From Sulfuritalea hydrogenivorans sk43H (lineage in GTDB: Bacteria > Pseudomonadota > Gammaproteobacteria > Burkholderiales > Rhodocyclaceae), in contig NZ_AP012547.1 of the NCBI RefSeq assembly GCF_000828635.1, positions 2,728,001 to 2,792,000 of the forward strand: a stretch of DNA of 64,000 nt, read 5' to 3'. The position numbers and the translations under genes were made by a program. Positions 1 through 5,921 of the stretch are shown piece by piece; the first letter of the stretch is position 1; every line of letters starts with the position of its first letter. The notes beneath the pieces were generated by a model, which saw only the letters and a program-made list of their open reading frames with translations, was not told where the DNA came from and did no database searches.

Positions 1-135
1 GCCTCCGGAATGGCTGAGGCAATTGAAGCAGCGTTGCCGGCCCAAAAAATCGCGGAGCTTGGTCAAAGCATTGAAGCTGAAATAGCGGCGAGAACCGAGT
101 CCAAAGCCAAGAATCGACGAAAAGCACAGAAGTAG
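1..135 (+). CDS. C-terminal end of an unidentified protein (partial)
   Basis: The window opens inside a reading frame whose last 44 residues are visible before a TAG stop. The tail is alanine-, glutamate- and lysine-rich and predicted helical, ending in a run of basic residues. No domain can be recognised from so little. The segment KIAEL shares 18 identical bases with the coiled-coil part of the serine recombinase at 5498-5515, so a distant or truncated relative of that gene is possible but not shown. A rho-independent terminator follows directly, so this is the last gene of its transcription unit and probably also belongs to the integrated element. Confidence 0.5.
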   Translation, partial: ASGMAEAIEAALPAQKIAELGQSIEAEIAARTESKAKNRRKAQK

Positions 136-153
136 TAGCCGCGTGGCTAGGAG

Positions 154-181
154 AGCCCGGCATATTTGGCCGGGCTTTTTG
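154..181 (+). terminator. Rho-independent terminator
   Basis: An 8-bp GC-rich stem, AGCCCGGC (154-161) with GCCGGGCT (169-176), closes a 7-nt loop and is followed by a T run. It ends the transcription unit of the partial gene at the window start and insulates the regulator gene downstream. Confidence 0.85.
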
Positions 182-207
182 TTGACTACTACAACCTCGT
201 TTATGAA

Positions 208-256
208 CAGTTGCACTCAGTTGAATTTTGTGGTTCAATTCATTTGTGTTCAACTG
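208..256. promoter_or_regulatory. Candidate operator with repeated CAGTTGAA half-sites
   Basis: CAGTTGAA (218-225) and TTCAACTG (249-256) form a perfect 8-bp inverted repeat. Between them lies TTCAATT (234-240), which pairs with GTTGAA (220-225), and CAGTTG recurs at 208-213. The array ends 20 bp upstream of the regulator start. Clustered symmetric half-sites directly before an XRE-type gene suggest an autoregulatory operator; that role is inference. Confidence 0.45.
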
Positions 257-275
257 TACCCATTCGAGGAAATAT

Positions 276-929
276 ATGAATATCCCGCAAAACCTACCCA
301 TCACACCCCTTCAATCGAAGGCGGCCCGTTACCAACTCGGCCTGACGCAGGCGAACGTAATCCAAGAATCCAGCCTGCCCGGTCACAAGCTCAAGGGCTT
401 CGAGACCGGCCGCCTGATCCCGGACATGAAGTTTCTTGAAGGCTTGGCAAATTTCTACCAGGCCAAAGGCATCGAGCTTTCTGACCTCACGGAAGGCGAA
501 GGCTTGACGCCGGTGAATGCCGCCGCGGTGAAGCCGATGTCCGACAAGCTGCAATCTGTCTCTGGCATGGCCTTCCGCATCGCCGTTCCATTCGACCAGG
601 TGGATACCCTGTTGGAGCGGATGGAGGCCAACGACGAGCGCATTGACGAAATTCTTGCCCAACCGGCGAAGGCGGGATTCCTGTCTGACTATGACGAGTC
701 CACCGAAGCGCTACAGCGCGAACTCTTCGGCCTGATGTCCGCGAACTATCTTCTCTTCCGTGCCCTGCAAGGCAGGTCCCTCACAGCCCGCACCGTGAAG
801 ACAGGCGACAAGAGGATTCAGCTCGATCTGCTCAATGCCTGGATGAGTACCGCCGAACTTACTTCCCTCTTGGACTCGGCAAGCACTCCAACTGCCGACG
901 CCTCAGATGACGAAGGGGATGAAGAATGA
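276..929 (+). CDS. XRE-type helix-turn-helix regulator of the integrated element
   Basis: This 217-residue protein starts at ATG 276, 5 nt after the Shine-Dalgarno sequence GAGGA. Residues about 10-60 resemble an XRE/Cro HTH: SKAARYQLGLTQANV, then GFETGRLIPD and a final helix (EGLANFYQAKGIEL). The rest is helical, acidic at the C-terminus (DDEGDEE), and matches no enzyme fold I recognise. It is the first gene of the element's operon and overlaps the next ORF by 4 nt (ATGA). Symmetric half-sites lie just upstream, so it probably controls its own operon. A role as phage-like repressor is inferred from position and fold only. Confidence 0.7.
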   Translation: MNIPQNLPITPLQSKAARYQLGLTQANVIQESSLPGHKLKGFETGRLIPDMKFLEGLANFYQAKGIELSDLTEGEGLTPVNAAAVKPMSDKLQSVSGMAFRIAVPFDQVDTLLERMEANDERIDEILAQPAKAGFLSDYDESTEALQRELFGLMSANYLLFRALQGRSLTARTVKTGDKRIQLDLLNAWMSTAELTSLLDSASTPTADASDDEGDEE

Positions 930-1054
930 ATATCGCCGCCCCTGTTGCAATGCTCATCGGCCGAGGCAGTGTCCCTGCCTTACTGGTCGCCGGCCTGATC
1001 GTCGCCGCGTGGCTGGCCCAGCAACCGAAAATCCAGCAGCCCCCGACCCGCTGA
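926..1054 (+). CDS. Small single-pass membrane protein
   Basis: A 42-residue ORF starts with an ATGA overlap with the preceding regulator, which suggests translational coupling. Residues about 15-32 (VPALLVAGLIVAAWLAQQ) form one hydrophobic segment, and the tail is proline- and glutamine-rich. No family is recognisable. Small one-helix proteins are common in filamentous-phage-like replicons, for example as minor coat proteins, but size and topology alone cannot show this. Compactness and the overlap are the main arguments that it is real. Confidence 0.5.
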   Translation: MNIAAPVAMLIGRGSVPALLVAGLIVAAWLAQQPKIQQPPTR

Positions 1055-1065
1055 CCGGGGGCCAC

Positions 1066-1311
1066 ATGGCTTGCCACACACCTGAAGCGGCGGCGGGTTC
1101 ATCCGCCCCGCACTATCGCGTCTATGACCCATTGCGGGCTGAATGGGCGGCGCCCCATCCCGCCGCTCATCCCATGACGTCAAACCGGCCTGAAGCGGCC
1201 CTACACGCTTCAGAGCCGGTCGCTGTCATGCATGGCCGGCAACTGATTGGCCCGTCCCGGCCGTGGCTGGTTGTGCAGCCTGTGTGTCCAATCTGCGAGG
1301 ACGCTGAATAG
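1066..1311 (+). CDS. Hypothetical 81-aa protein with C-terminal CPIC motif
   Basis: ATG 1066 follows a G-rich stretch that could serve as ribosome binding site, and the stop lies 2 nt before the Rep start codon. The protein is rich in alanine, proline and histidine and ends PWLVVQPVCPICEDAE; the Cys-Pro-x-Cys pair could bind metal. I recognise no family. It fills the space between two better-supported genes, and the Rep ribosome binding site (GAGGA) lies inside its 3' end, which supports a coupled operon. Confidence 0.4.
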   Translation: MACHTPEAAAGSSAPHYRVYDPLRAEWAAPHPAAHPMTSNRPEAALHASEPVAVMHGRQLIGPSRPWLVVQPVCPICEDAE

Positions 1312-1313
1312 CC

Positions 1314-3083
1314 ATGGGACGGATATCGAATTTGGCTGTCGCCGTCCGCAACGGCTATGACCCGTTCGAGGCTCAGCAACGAGATTGGCTTGAAGACACC
1401 ACGGCGAAATGGCCAGCACGCTGGAAGCGCGATGCCATCACCAGACACAGCCAGTTGTGCACAACGAAAAGTCATGTTGCCGCAAACGAATGGCTGCTCG
1501 GTATCGCCGACCAGGTCGCGGCCTGCAAGATCGCGCCGAATGCCTCGGATTCAGACATCACCGACATCGCTTCAAAGCTGGCGAAGCGCGCAAACAGTCG
1601 TGCCGCCAGGTGGTCGACCTTGGGCCTCGCCGAAGCCCGCCGGGAAATCGACAAGCTCTGCATAGCCTCAGGTATCCAGCCCCCGACCCCCGACATCCCC
1701 GACAGTGGGGCAGTCGCCCGCATGACAGATGCCCTTTGGTGGCGGCGCAAACTGCGCCGCGAACAGGGCCGCGAGCGCGAAGCCATCGCCATCGCCCTGG
1801 GCTACGTCCACAAGAAACGAGACATCTACATCAGCGCCGAATCCTTCGCAGCCGAGCAACACAAGGTGCGACGTAATGCCGACATCCTCAAGGGAACCGA
1901 GGCCATCAGCGAGGATGGAGAAATCGTCACTCTCTCCGATCTGGCGGAGCACAGCCTGTCGAACCCCACCCTGCGCCGGGGTGAAATGATGGTCCGCATC
2001 AAAGGCTATGAGGATGTGTCGCGAGAGCGGGGCCATGCCGGGCTTTTCGTTACTCTGACCTGTCCCAGTCGCATGCATGCACGGCTCGCCAGCACAGGCG
2101 CATCGAACCCGGCCTACGACAGCACCACGCCAAGGCAGGCGCAGGCCTATCTCTGCAACCTGTGGGAAGACATCCGCTCCAACTTCAAAAATCGCTACGT
2201 CGACGTCTACGGCCTGCGCATTGCCGAGGCCCATCACGATGGCACGCCCCATTGGCATCTGTTGCTGTTTGTCTCGCCTCTGCATGTGGATGCCGTCAGG
2301 AACACCATCCGCCGCTATGCGCTGGCCGACTCGCCCGACGAAGCGGGCGCGCAGCAGTACCGCGTCAAGTTCGAGAACATCGATCCACTGAAGGGCAGCG
2401 CGGTGCAGTACGTTGCCAAATACATCGGCAAGAACGTCGACGGCACCGGTATCGACCTGGACGAAAACGGTGTGCTCGCCGCCGAATCGCTCGCCCGCGT
2501 CACGGCCTGGGCGCGCCTGCATGGCATTCGTCAGTTTCAATTCATCGGCGGCCCGCCGGTGGGCTTGTGGCGCGAAATACGCCGCATCAAGGCGCCAGTG
2601 ATTGCCGACGCACCCGAAGCCATCGGCAGCGCGTGGCGCGCCGCGCAGAAGGCCGAGGACCGCCAAGCCGACTATGCCGGCCTTATCCGTGCTGTGGGCG
2701 GCCCGACCGTCAAGCGTGCAGAACAAGCCATCCAGTTGGCGACGGCCAGCGACGAGCGGCCCGGCCGTTACGGCTGGCAAACCATGGTCAAGCCGGTCGG
2801 CGTGTTCCACCTGGACAAGCCGCGACGGGTTTATGCCTCCGAGCGCAAAGTCTGGCAAATCCGCATGCGAGCCGGCGAATTTGGACGGCGTTTTGCTGGT
2901 GATCCGGCCGCCGCTCATCGCCCTTGGACTCGTGTCAATAACTGTGCGGGCCGCGCCGCACAAGGCTTTTCAGGCGATCAATTGCGCCCGATGGTGGGTA
3001 ACGTCATTCCGTTTCCGGGGCTTGGGCCGGCAAGGCCGCCAGGGCAGACCGAAACACCGAATTTCAGCCTGGGGCCACCGTGA
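1314..3083 (+). CDS. HUH-family replication initiation endonuclease (phage gene A / Rep type)
   Basis: A 589-residue protein with the hallmarks of the replication gene A superfamily of phages and rolling-circle replicons. The middle carries HAGLFVTLTCPS, then the metal-binding HUH motif PHWHLLLF (His313, His315), and AVQYVAKYIGKN with two tyrosines four residues apart (Tyr366, Tyr370). Paired tyrosines mark the gpA/phiX-type branch, which nicks the double-strand origin and joins 5' DNA ends during strand transfer. The N-terminal third and basic C-terminal tail are unassigned. The stop overlaps the next gene by GTGA. It implies that the element replicates, or once replicated, by a rolling-circle route; I did not locate the nick site. 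Confidence 0.88.
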   Translation: MGRISNLAVAVRNGYDPFEAQQRDWLEDTTAKWPARWKRDAITRHSQLCTTKSHVAANEWLLGIADQVAACKIAPNASDSDITDIASKLAKRANSRAARWSTLGLAEARREIDKLCIASGIQPPTPDIPDSGAVARMTDALWWRRKLRREQGREREAIAIALGYVHKKRDIYISAESFAAEQHKVRRNADILKGTEAISEDGEIVTLSDLAEHSLSNPTLRRGEMMVRIKGYEDVSRERGHAGLFVTLTCPSRMHARLASTGASNPAYDSTTPRQAQAYLCNLWEDIRSNFKNRYVDVYGLRIAEAHHDGTPHWHLLLFVSPLHVDAVRNTIRRYALADSPDEAGAQQYRVKFENIDPLKGSAVQYVAKYIGKNVDGTGIDLDENGVLAAESLARVTAWARLHGIRQFQFIGGPPVGLWREIRRIKAPVIADAPEAIGSAWRAAQKAEDRQADYAGLIRAVGGPTVKRAEQAIQLATASDERPGRYGWQTMVKPVGVFHLDKPRRVYASERKVWQIRMRAGEFGRRFAGDPAAAHRPWTRVNNCAGRAAQGFSGDQLRPMVGNVIPFPGLGPARPPGQTETPNFSLGPP

Positions 3084-3799
3084 AAACGACCAATACGACA
3101 CTGATAAAAGACGCTACGCACAAGCGGCAGGCGCCTACTCGGGTGTGGGTTCTCGAAGAAATGCCATCGAAATCTTGGGGCGAGATGAACCGGTACATCA
3201 GGAAGAACAGCGATGCAATGCACTTGCCGCCCTGGATGGAGCAGGCGGATGAGTGGCCGGAAATCACGCCGGAAAGATTTATTGAGTTGCGCAAGTTCAT
3301 GCTTCAACTTAAGGCTGTCCAATGCGCGGCGCTGCTTCGCGTGAATCCGAGCACCGTTTGGCGCTGGGAAAATGGTTCGATCCCGATCCCGTTTGCCGCT
3401 TACATGGCGCTGCGCCTTTTGCTCGATGTGCGCTTTCTGCCCCACCAAGTGAAGGAGTGGGAAGGGTGGCAGATCATCAATGCCGGACCTGACGTCGGCA
3501 TGCTCTACGACTCCAAACGCTCGGGAACCATGGTTTCCCCTGGCGACATCCGCGCCGCTCGCTATGCGAAAGGCGAGCGCGATGCCTGGCAGCGCAGGGC
3601 TGAGAAAGCTGAAACCAAAGCCGCCGAACTCGAAGCTGAAAACACCCGCCTGCGCCAGTTATTCAACGCCCAAGGCGTCACCAAAGAACTGCGCCAGATG
3701 CAGGAAAAGCTGTCCGCCATGCTTGACGACATCGGCACAGCGGAAATCATCGACTACCGGCCCGCCGCAGCGAGTCACCACCAGGAGAAAGCCGCATGA
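3080..3799 (+). CDS. Phage-type HTH protein with C-terminal coiled coil
   Basis: A 239-residue protein translated from GTG 3080, coupled to the Rep gene by a GTGA overlap. Around residues 75-110 a helix-turn-helix is visible (LKAVQCAALLRVNPSTVWRWENG), followed by a basic region with the phrase MVSPGDIRAARY. Residues about 165-210 form a charged heptad-like helix. The layout resembles phage proteins grouped under DUF3653, although I cannot confirm the match. A DNA-binding accessory factor for replication or regulation is plausible. The next ORF starts inside its stop codon (ATGA). Confidence 0.6.
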   Translation: MKTTNTTLIKDATHKRQAPTRVWVLEEMPSKSWGEMNRYIRKNSDAMHLPPWMEQADEWPEITPERFIELRKFMLQLKAVQCAALLRVNPSTVWRWENGSIPIPFAAYMALRLLLDVRFLPHQVKEWEGWQIINAGPDVGMLYDSKRSGTMVSPGDIRAARYAKGERDAWQRRAEKAETKAAELEAENTRLRQLFNAQGVTKELRQMQEKLSAMLDDIGTAEIIDYRPAAASHHQEKAA

Positions 3800-3984
3800 C
3801 GAAAAACGCACGCCACTGCAAATCGCAGAAGGCCGTTACCGCCAAGGTAATCAACCTGGTCCGGCCAATGCCTACCGTCGCCAAAACCAGCGACTCCGTG
3901 TCCGCGGTGGCCACCGATCCCCGCCGCAACCACTTCGCCAACTCGAACGGCTCCCGCTGGGGCCGCACCTTCAGGAGTAATTGA
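3796..3984 (+). CDS. Small basic hypothetical protein (62 aa)
   Basis: This ORF begins with an ATGA overlap with the HTH/coiled-coil gene and ends 2 nt before the next ORF. The product is basic, rich in serine and asparagine, and has no recognisable domain. Support comes only from its coupled position in a tightly packed plus-strand operon. Confidence 0.4.
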   Translation: MTKNARHCKSQKAVTAKVINLVRPMPTVAKTSDSVSAVATDPRRNHFANSNGSRWGRTFRSN

Positions 3985-3986
3985 CT

Positions 3987-4166
3987 ATGCGCTCACACCA
4001 GTTCGATCTCAACCCGACTCTATTCCCTCTCGAAATCGTTGTGCAGCGCTTGCGCTCGTATTGCCGCAACCGCTTTGGCCACAAGGCGCTGACGAAGAAA
4101 GGTGGCTGGGCGCGAGCCAGAGCCTTCCGCCTCCTGACCTGCAAGCCGTGGAAGCGTCGTTCCTGA
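3987..4166 (+). CDS. Small arginine-rich hypothetical protein (59 aa)
   Basis: ATG 3987 is preceded by AGGAG at 3973-3977. The product is strongly basic, with arginine and lysine clusters (KKGGWARARAF and KPWKRRS at the end) that could bind nucleic acid. No family is recognised. About 130 bp without a convincing ORF separate it from the recombinase gene. Confidence 0.4.
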   Translation: MRSHQFDLNPTLFPLEIVVQRLRSYCRNRFGHKALTKKGGWARARAFRLLTCKPWKRRS

Positions 4167-4296
4167 TACTCCGCATCGATCCTCGCCGCCGTCGTGTCCG
4201 CCCCCATCATCACCATGTTGCCGTCTATCGGGTTGCCAAGCCCGAAGGTCGCGGCTAGGCTGGTGGCACCGGTACTACTTTCTCTTTGGGAGCATC

Positions 4297-5802
4297 ATGG
4301 ACAGCGCAGCCCTCTACCTGAGATCGAGCAAGGATCGCCACGATGTGAGCCTCGACGCGCAGCGCCGGGAACTGATTGCACTGGCGAAGGCCCGCAACCT
4401 CACCATCGTTGAAACCTTCCAGGACGCGGTTGAATCCGGCAAGGATGACCAGCGCCCCGGCTTCCAGACACTGCTGCGGCGAATGAAGGACAAGGATCGC
4501 TCCTGGACCTTCCTGCTCGCGCTCGATACCTCGCGCATCGCCCGTAATCAATACCTCGCGCACGCGCTGCATTTCGAGTGTGAGAAACGCGGAATCAAGG
4601 TGCTCTATGCCAAGGTGCCGGAAACCAACACCGTGATGGATGTGGTGATTCGCGCCGTCATGCAGTCGTTCGACGAACTGCATAGCCTGATGAGCAAGGA
4701 GAAAGGGCTGGGAGGCATGGCGGAGAATGTGCGCCAAGGCTGGCGTGCTGGCGGCAGGGCACCGCTGGGTTACCGCCTGGAGCATATCGCCACGGGAGCG
4801 ATGCGCGACGGCGCAGCAGTCACCAAATCACGTTTGGTGCGCTCCCCCGAGGCGCATAAGGTGGGGGCGTACATGACGGCCCGAGCAGCCGGCGCAAGCC
4901 GCGCCCAGGCAGCAAGTGCGGCGGGCCTGCGCGATATTTCGGATTCATCGCTGATCGGGATGGAATGGAACGCCCTCACCTATGCCGGGCACACGGTCTG
5001 GAACGTTCATACCGAGCGGCTGTCGGGCGGAGGCTACAAAGGTGGGACCAAACGCCGGCCGCGTGCCGACTGGGTGATTCAGTACGACACCCACGATCGA
5101 CTGATAGGCACCGAAGAAGCCGAGGCTATCCTCGCGCGCCTCGAAAAAGGCCGCCCGAAGAGCTACCGGACAAAGGCTGATTACCTGCTCTCAGGCCTGC
5201 TGCTGACACCTGAAGGTAAAGCCTGGCACGACGACGGAGACGGCAGCTATCGCCTTGCCGGAAAAGGCCGGCGCATCAGCCAGCAGGCGATTGAGACCGC
5301 TGTGGTCGCCAAGTTGCAGGCGGACATGATTTCCGATGCCTTCGTTGCTGAACTGCTGACGGAAGCCAGGCGCATGAGTGCAGCGCCGCCAGATGAACGG
5401 CTCAAGCCGCTGCGGACTGAAGTCACCGCAATGACGGTCAAGATCGGGAAGCTAGCCGGCTTCGCCGCCGAGTCGGAGTCTCCGCGCCCTTTCCTCGAAA
5501 AAATCGCGGAGCTTGAGCGTCAGCGCGGGCAGATCGCCGACGAGCTGCGCACATTGGAAGATCAGCAGAACGCCGCTGACGTGCTCCGTGCCATCAGCGA
5601 GAAAGACATCCGCACGCTGCTGGCCGGTCTGGCCGATCATCTGCATGAAGTCGACCGCGAAGCTCTGAAGGAAATGATCGGCGGAATGGTTGAGCGCGTC
5701 GAGCTATGCTCGACTTCGCTCAACGCCCGGCTGCACTACAACTTTGCAGCCGGGGATTTTGTGGCGTCCCCACGGGGATTCGAACCCCGGTTCATACCGT
5801 GA
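4297..5802 (+). CDS. Large serine recombinase (element integrase)
   Basis: A 501-residue site-specific recombinase with its start just after GGGAGC. The N-terminal resolvase domain begins with YLRSSKDR (catalytic serine most likely Ser11), followed by SLDAQRREL and DTSRIARN. Residues about 145-290 match the recombinase domain (GWRAGGRAPLGY), and residues about 385-440 form a coiled coil. The zinc-ribbon position (SGLLLTPEGKAWHDDGD) has lost the usual cysteine pairs. The last codons (VASPRGFEPRFIP) are the antisense of tRNA-Glu, so the stop codon lies inside the tRNA gene, and the native C-terminus probably ended near LHYNF. It is the likely integrase of the element to its left. Confidence 0.92.
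   Translation: MDSAALYLRSSKDRHDVSLDAQRRELIALAKARNLTIVETFQDAVESGKDDQRPGFQTLLRRMKDKDRSWTFLLALDTSRIARNQYLAHALHFECEKRGIKVLYAKVPETNTVMDVVIRAVMQSFDELHSLMSKEKGLGGMAENVRQGWRAGGRAPLGYRLEHIATGAMRDGAAVTKSRLVRSPEAHKVGAYMTARAAGASRAQAASAAGLRDISDSSLIGMEWNALTYAGHTVWNVHTERLSGGGYKGGTKRRPRADWVIQYDTHDRLIGTEEAEAILARLEKGRPKSYRTKADYLLSGLLLTPEGKAWHDDGDGSYRLAGKGRRISQQAIETAVVAKLQADMISDAFVAELLTEARRMSAAPPDERLKPLRTEVTAMTVKIGKLAGFAAESESPRPFLEKIAELERQRGQIADELRTLEDQQNAADVLRAISEKDIRTLLAGLADHLHEVDREALKEMIGGMVERVELCSTSLNARLHYNFAAGDFVASPRGFEPRFIP
5726..5754. repeat. Perfect 10-bp inverted repeat next to the tRNA-Glu 3' end
   Basis: CCCGGCTGCA (5726-5735) and TGCAGCCGGG (5745-5754) flank a 9-nt loop, 7 bp from the tRNA-Glu CCA end and inside the recombinase reading frame. 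In the tRNA direction no T run follows, so it is a poor intrinsic terminator. It may be part of the recombinase attachment site or may define the 3' end of the tRNA transcript. Confidence 0.6.
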
Positions 5803-5837
5803 AAGGGTATTGTCCTAGGCCTCTAGACGATAGGGAC
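5762..5837 (-). tRNA. tRNA-Glu (TTC)
   Basis: The 76-nt minus-strand sequence folds as a standard cloverleaf: acceptor GTCCCTA, anticodon loop with TTC in CCCTTTCACGG, T-arm GGTTCGAATCC and an encoded CCA. It is the downstream member of a pair with tRNA-Ala and forms the boundary of the integrated element. The last 41 nt of the serine recombinase gene lie antisense to it. Confidence 0.97.
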
Positions 5838-5845
5838 TTATCGTT

Positions 5846-5921
<76 letters not shown>

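Follow-up and report, generated by a model that had tools for sequence, protein, structure and literature searches.

The integrated element and its genes

The window analysed here, a stretch of 64,000 nucleotides from the single-contig genome of Sulfuritalea hydrogenivorans sk43H (3,802,648 bp), begins inside an integrated element of 7,085 bp. Positions 1..5775 belong to the element, the left 1.3 kb of which lies outside the window (L007 18672-20000). At its right end stands a tRNA-Glu(UUC) gene on the reverse strand (5762..5837, called by ARAGORN), which is the attB gene and was left whole after integration, followed by a tRNA-Ala gene at 5846..5921. Running into the tRNA-Glu gene on the forward strand is a large serine recombinase (LSR) gene at 4297..5802, an open reading frame of 501 aa in its integrated form, identified by a Pfam Resolvase match (E = 4.6e-20) and by structural-model matches.

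The element also encodes a rolling-circle replication initiator of the P2 gpA kind (1314..3083, forward strand; Pfam Phage_GPA 1.4e-84, phrog_91 3.9e-155) and two HTH proteins on the same strand. The first of these (228..929) had a weak Pfam HTH_31 match (9e-5) below the cut-off, and the second (3080..3799), with weak matches to phrog_66 (excisionase/regulator, 0.0016) and phrog_3 (repressor, 0.00096), is a candidate regulator or directionality factor. The element further carries a gene for a PIN-domain protein (below the Pfam cut-off), preceded by a small ORF. No structural or capsid genes were found in the 7,085-bp element, which may be a satellite or an integrative plasmid, and the loci searched held no homologues of its replication initiator, HTH, and PIN proteins. 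About 0.9 kb to the left of attL stands a gene for a DDE-type transposase (L007 16768-17760).

The recombinase and its host-encoded end

The recombinase matched the PHROG category 'integrase' (4.2e-42), and its Recombinase domain scored below the Pfam cut-off (E = 0.015). Among the 66 aligned rows of its family, Pfam Resolvase was found in all and Pfam Recombinase in 56; the putative active-site residues S10, R9, R68, and R83 were present in 66/66 and R80 in 65/66. The AlphaFold2 model of the window protein (mean pLDDT 88.3) matched the Bxb1, SPbeta-type, and phiC31 integrases over the full length. By sequence and model alike, the protein is a large serine recombinase. The structure matches hardly extended past residue 488, which is no sign of a new fold; residues 488-493 and 495-501 of the integrated form were modelled at pLDDT below 50. 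A Cys4 zinc ribbon in the ZD is a usual, not a defining, feature of large serine integrases. The corresponding region (residues 296-335) contained no Cys in 48/66 and one Cys in 18/66 rows, and the usual zinc-ribbon cysteines were accordingly absent across the 66 aligned members of the family.

As the first-pass annotation of the window had pointed out, the recombinase frame ends antisense within the 3′ half of the tRNA-Glu gene. The final 12 codons and the stop lie inside that gene, as does part of codon 489, which gives a C-terminus of ...FAAGDFVASPRGFEPRFIP and then the stop (the product end is also given as ...FVASPRGFEPRFIP). The frame crosses the tRNA 3′ end, TGGCGTCCCCA on the forward strand (5762-5772), which the element itself contributes in antisense orientation; codon 493 begins at 5773, and the TGA stop (5800-5802) is the antisense of the last two anticodon bases and the next A. 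The codons common to both sides end with R493. The host tRNA supplies the remaining tail GFEPRFIP and its stop (5776..5802, forward strand), so the earlier statement that host DNA completes the gene was correct. A chance antisense extension of the ORF was considered and rejected, because the recombinase itself uses this frame and the ORFs of 32 distinct attR relatives stop at the same tRNA position.

Attachment sites and the empty site

The tRNA 3′ end and its flank form one copy of a 19-bp direct repeat, TTTTGTGGCGTCCCCACGG (5757..5775, forward strand). An upstream search for a second copy, which the first-pass annotation had proposed, located it 7,085 bp away and 1.3 kb left of the window, at genome positions 2726672-2726690 (window −1328 to −1310). 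Because of this partner, an attL, the edge in the window could be assigned as the attR of an integrated element, and an element lacking a left end was ruled out.

A comparison with empty sites, likewise proposed earlier, covered 31 same-genus genomes, the host's own included, and confirmed that the edge is an attachment site. In the non-carrier G010 (locus L433), a terminator hairpin directly follows tRNA-Glu; over 55 nt, this hairpin shares 98% identity with the host flank that lies beyond the attL of the window element. A second same-genus flank (L434) matched the host flank at 88% over 51 nt, and the remaining same-genus flanks listed gave no match. Since the terminator of the empty site now sits beyond attL, integration has moved the native tRNA terminator 7.1 kb away. 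The metagenome-assembled genome (MAG) G101 holds an attP, an attL that has its host terminator, and an unoccupied attB bearing that terminator too. The element in G101, 38.9 kb long, carries head and terminase genes of families that we take to be P2-like, so that one relative with this recombinase is a phage. For the elements in G104, G105, G106, G108, and most viral contigs, no attL was found in the stretches examined.

When the 42 distinct free copies described below were pooled, attP appeared as an imperfect palindrome centred on the junction of TGGCGTCCCCA and CGG (offset 11.0), with a pairing of 0.59 at distances 9-26, compared with a mean of 0.26 across all centres tried. From the position of this centre, we infer that the crossover falls between 5772 and 5773, that is, between codons 492 and 493.

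Close to its 3′ end and immediately ahead of the att core, the recombinase gene contains the inverted repeat CCCGGCTGCA..TGCAGCCGGG (5726..5754). In the relative L010, matching changes were found in both arms. Perfect inverted repeats were enriched in the last 48 nt before the core across the family, with a mean best stem of 6.4 bp compared with 4.2 in shuffles; stems of at least 8 bp occurred in 20 of 75 rows (L010, L078, L373, L384, and others), and their sequence differed between members. These repeats may stand in for the terminator of the tRNA, which integration displaces. Integration also brings the 3′ end of the recombinase gene up against the antisense strand of a transcribed tRNA gene and takes the terminator of that gene away, and on these premises an antisense RNA or the pre-core hairpin could set the recombinase level, with the protein tail being secondary. 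The displacement of the native terminator to attL and the enrichment of hairpins speak for such control at the RNA level, but we regard it as highly improbable, for it leaves unexplained both the coding constraint and the Ala-Ala ends of the free form that are reported below.

Two ends for one gene

When attR was joined to attL in silico, the predicted circle junction kept the recombinase frame open through the core and into element DNA (...FVASPR-RAEQIPACQNLAIRVIQSLKLAA, then stop). The circle form of the protein would continue from ASPR into ...AIRVIQSLKLAA and be 516 aa long, 15 aa longer than the 501 aa of the integrated form.

Relatives were gathered from genome and virus collections, yielding 180 recombinase hits with 83 distinct ORF ends, 75 of which had a forward core. 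The rows were sorted into attR and free copies by the position of the ORF end (30 nt past the core), after which the tRNA motif was checked. The motif TCGAA was present in 31 of the 32 attR rows, with TTGAA in L428; among the 42 free rows, only L414 bears TCGAAC, a partial mimic. L016, the ORF of which ends 30 nt past the core but outside a tRNA, was counted as free. The 42 leave out two rows that lack a core and six in which the core is reversed. L024 is an attR copy that enters tRNA-Glu in another frame; it was also excluded from the 42 and was included in the n = 43 set used for shuffles, codon spellings, and tail lengths. Two attR copies found later, L519 and L520, stand outside the 32.

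All 32 distinct attR copies stop at the same position of tRNA-Glu, antisense, at the anticodon region and 30 nt past the core, and 31 of them end in Pro. The 42 distinct free (attP) copies have non-tRNA DNA after the core and different tails, of 9-40 codons in the n = 43 set. On a tree of 79 rows, free and attR copies were interleaved (19 label changes for 'free'): the window attR copy is sister to the free L203 (support 94/97), and the attR copy L043 is sister to the free L422 (100/99). Had the same C-terminal sequence been carried by relatives at other loci, it would have counted against the earlier reading; within the family, this sequence turned up only in copies whose frame enters tRNA-Glu. 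The suggestion of the first-pass annotation that excision changes the recombinase tail is therefore upheld by the junction read from the sequence, by free relatives with such tails, and by the attP, attL, and attB in MAG G101. At the level of sequence, these comparisons establish that the tail is swapped at integration.

No close relatives were found on plasmids or in cultured phages. The 29 plasmid records were all under 60% identity, as were the 21 records from cultured phages, none of which covered 80%. Among 369 genomes drawn from the class, three had a family match at E ≤ 1e-40, the host's own included. In the six reversed-core rows (L045, L047, L367, and three more), the tRNA-Glu core is opposite in orientation to the recombinase, and integration would bring the frame to the host flank, not to the tRNA; in L045 and L047, the reversed core is part of a long palindrome, beyond which a tRNA-Asp gene follows at a distance of about 90 nt. 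The locus L443 / L057 (G012) is a fossil, in which only about the last 34 recombinase codons were matched, before tRNA-Glu.

Selection on the free tail

The free tails ended in Ala in 30/42 copies, in Ala-Ala in 21/42, and in LAA in 6/42, compared with no Ala-Ala end among the 32 attR copies. The same DNA, translated in the other two frames, gave Ala ends in 2/39 and 4/40 cases (6/79) and Ala-Ala ends in 1/39 and 0/40 (1/79); shuffled free-tail sequences (n = 43 set) gave 8.8% and 0.8%, and neighbouring mechanical ORFs of at least 200 aa gave 28/152 and 9/152, respectively. The rows share kinship, and Fisher values for this comparison of Ala ends overstate their independence. Counting back from the carboxyl end, position −1 was Ala in 71% and −2 in 55% of the free tails, −3 was basic in 62% and −4 in 57%, and acidic residues were rare within the last 11 positions. 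The Ala-Ala-stop was spelled with 17 different codon combinations among 21 copies (n = 43 set), and in three free copies the core is read in another frame, the ends being RKAA, RRAA, and RRARW. With so many spellings, and with such ends reached in another frame, the DNA sequence is not what is kept.

Codon differences were then compared in seven pairs of rows that had tails of equal length and were at least 0.63 identical upstream, drawn from the best 45 pairs; three further equal-length pairs (0.55, 0.53, and 0.50) and all unequal pairs were not used. In the last 8 codons, the differences at positions 1/2/3 numbered 17/9/40, with 31 silent and 14 changing codons. The first 8 codons, which lie over the att arm, gave 18/18/19, with 6 silent and 29 changing codons. 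Since three of the seven pairs share rows, five independent pairs were counted separately, and their distal 8 codons contained 21 silent changes, compared with a simulated mean of 6.7 and a maximum of 14 in 3,000 simulations. L391 and L398 both end in VRIRRAA, and not one codon of this stretch, the stop included, is the same in the two. From these codon-position differences, it follows that the distal tail is kept as protein and the proximal part as att site.

A reading of the free tail as a mere by-product of the att site could draw on the wide variation in tail sequence and length, on the disorder of the tail in the integrated-form model, and on the shaping of its proximal half by the att palindrome rather than by the protein. 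The silent bias of the distal 8 codons and the frequency of Ala ends, far above that in the other frames, tell against it, and on this sequence evidence we consider it unlikely. The same data show that the free tail is under selection at the protein level.

The Ala end was not universal. Non-Ala ends were found in 12/42 free tails (e.g., SRRV, KLTGT, KIV, and RTTP). Five further free tails were predicted from attL, and three of these end in Ala (window, KLAA; G011, RKGA; G102, KFA), unlike those of G057 and G109; the 12 tails and these two count against a universal degron. Among the reversed-core copies, 2/6 end in Ala. Both the selection on the free tail and its basic-basic-Ala-Ala tendency had been overlooked in the first-pass annotation.

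A proposed degradation tag removed by integration

The reading that we favour, with a probability of roughly 0.6, is that integration strips a C-terminal proteolysis tag from the integrase. On this reading, the 7,085-bp element used the large serine recombinase that it encodes to enter the 3′ end of tRNA-Glu. Because attP lies within the 3′ end of the recombinase gene, this gene has two alternative ends. In the free circle or phage, the frame runs through the att core into element DNA and acquires a tail of 9-40 residues, usually ending in basic-basic-Ala-Ala or similar. In the integrated form, it enters the antisense strand of tRNA-Glu and stops at the anticodon region with GFEPxxxP. The free tail would act as a ClpXP-type C-terminal degradation tag, so that the integrase made before integration would be short-lived and the frequency of integration limited. 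The prophage would make a stable enzyme, ready to excise once a directionality factor appears. As far as the sequences go, it is the tendency of the free tail towards basic-basic-Ala-Ala that gives this proposed switch a direction, and the degradation of the free-tailed protein itself is what we infer. Two C-terminal ClpXP signals are reported for E. coli, LAA-COOH and RRKKAI-COOH (PMC7857536), and another source describes phage tags, '--LAA, or similar', that are removed through integration (PMC9262239).

The main alternative is that the tail swap alters the activity of the enzyme and not its lifetime. The free tail would then extend the C-terminal DNA-binding (ZD) domain by a basic strand, and integration would strip this strand, biasing the enzyme to attL x attR or to its directionality factor. 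The AlphaFold2 model of the free form of L010 contains a strand at residues 502-508 within the tail (block mean pLDDT 81), compared with an integrated tail (488-501) mostly below 50, and part of the free tail may accordingly be structural. Basic residues also dominate the free tails, another LSR family has permanent RRAA/QRRI ends, and the directionality factor gp3 binds phiC31 integrase via the zinc domain, to go by the title of PMC5814800. Against an effect on activity stand the anchoring of the signal at the carboxyl end, with Ala at −1 and −2 as a C-degron predicts, the wide range of tail lengths, and the matched LSR structures, most of which end near model residue 488. We consider this alternative somewhat unlikely, and the removal of a degradation tag remains our preferred reading. 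Taking the two readings together, integration probably alters either the lifetime of the enzyme or its activity.

Possible spread to other recombinase families

The first-pass annotation held that tRNA genes are seldom used by large serine recombinases. Another LSR family, only distantly related (26-27% identical to the window protein over partial length), also ends antisense inside tRNA genes. In this family, 29 rows were read, 20 of which were not assigned to either free or tRNA-ended copies. ARAGORN called a tRNA under the stop in five rows, namely tRNA-Asn in L037, tRNA-Arg in L032, L474, and L479, and tRNA-Ser in L478; L467, L470, and L484 read right through tRNA-Ser. L026 enters a tRNA-Asn copy that has no ARAGORN call and is apparently broken after the anticodon. 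The one clear free copy, L462, ends in VRFRRAA. For the L037 element, no second att copy was found in its genome with the pattern used.

In a third LSR family (L027-L031, L038, L040, L490-L492, and L511), there is no tRNA at the end of the gene, and the C-terminus is a permanent, conserved RRAA or KRAA, with QRR[IV] occurring too. Because these ends are permanent, RRAA-type ends are not peculiar to swapped tails, and the RRAA/KRAA terminus of the third family may be a lasting tag.

The switch might be widespread among phages and small elements that target tRNA genes and whose large serine integrases carry attP in their own 3′ end, in at least two distant families (one at tRNA-Glu, the other at tRNA-Asn, -Arg, and -Ser). 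The free form would be degradation-tagged, and the integrated form would have a stable antisense-tRNA tail and a stop at the anticodon region. We would lay even odds on this generalization.

Comparison with known systems

Integration-dependent immunity was reportedly described in 2013 by Broussard and coworkers for mycobacteriophage BPs and its relatives. That system and the one proposed here share an attP within a coding sequence, an attB within a tRNA gene, and a viral form with an ssrA-like ...AA end, which integration replaces by a shorter end whose stop comes from the host. The split gene differs, being the integrase here and the repressor in BPs; the enzyme here is a large serine recombinase, whereas BPs has a tyrosine integrase with a permanent tag of its own, and here the host part is read antisense from tRNA-Glu. 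The excerpts that we drew on state that in mycobacteriophages of the BPs kind, attP is in the repressor gene and integration removes an ssrA-like tag (PMC9262239, PMC8092301, PMC9934374, PMC6109161), and that the integrase carries a permanent ssrA-like tag (PMC9262239, PMC8092301). The exchange of a tagged C-terminus by integration is therefore already known, for repressors with tyrosine integrases. In the open-licence literature, we found no report of a serine integrase with a tail exchanged on integration, or of an antisense-tRNA host end with the anticodon region as its stop.

The window recombinase resembles the Bxb1, phiC31, SPbeta-type, and TP901-1 integrases in its catalytic fold, its full-length domain layout, and its palindromic attP. 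It differs from these large serine integrases in its tRNA-Glu target, in a gene that overlaps attP, in the absence of zinc-ribbon cysteines, and in its host-completed tail. In M. abscessus, all three attB sites of serine integrases are in ORFs, according to a passage of PMC8092301. Should the free tail prove to be a degron, this would go some way towards explaining how integrase dose, and with it lysogeny frequency, is set without a lambda-like circuit. Integrase sequences derived from prophages, e.g., for genome engineering, may bear the host tail and not the native one, and tests of such integrases would thus use a different protein from the integrating one.

The retroregulation of lambda int by sib is said to have been described by Schindler and Echols in 1981. 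The sib element is a hairpin downstream of int, processed by RNase III and present there only in the free form. The scheme proposed here would be its protein-level counterpart: in both cases, integration removes an int-lowering element from downstream of the integrase gene of the free phage. Unlike sib, which acts on the mRNA, the element here is coding and would act on the protein, and the hairpin found here lies upstream of the core, in both forms. An excerpt of PMC6379469 also cites sib retroregulation to Schindler and Echols (1981).

Known integration-dependent switches split the repressor. Here the recombinase is split, and a host tRNA read backwards provides the alternative end and the stop. 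An integrase gene can in this way record that it has integrated, since the reaction catalysed by its product rewrites the C-terminus of that product.
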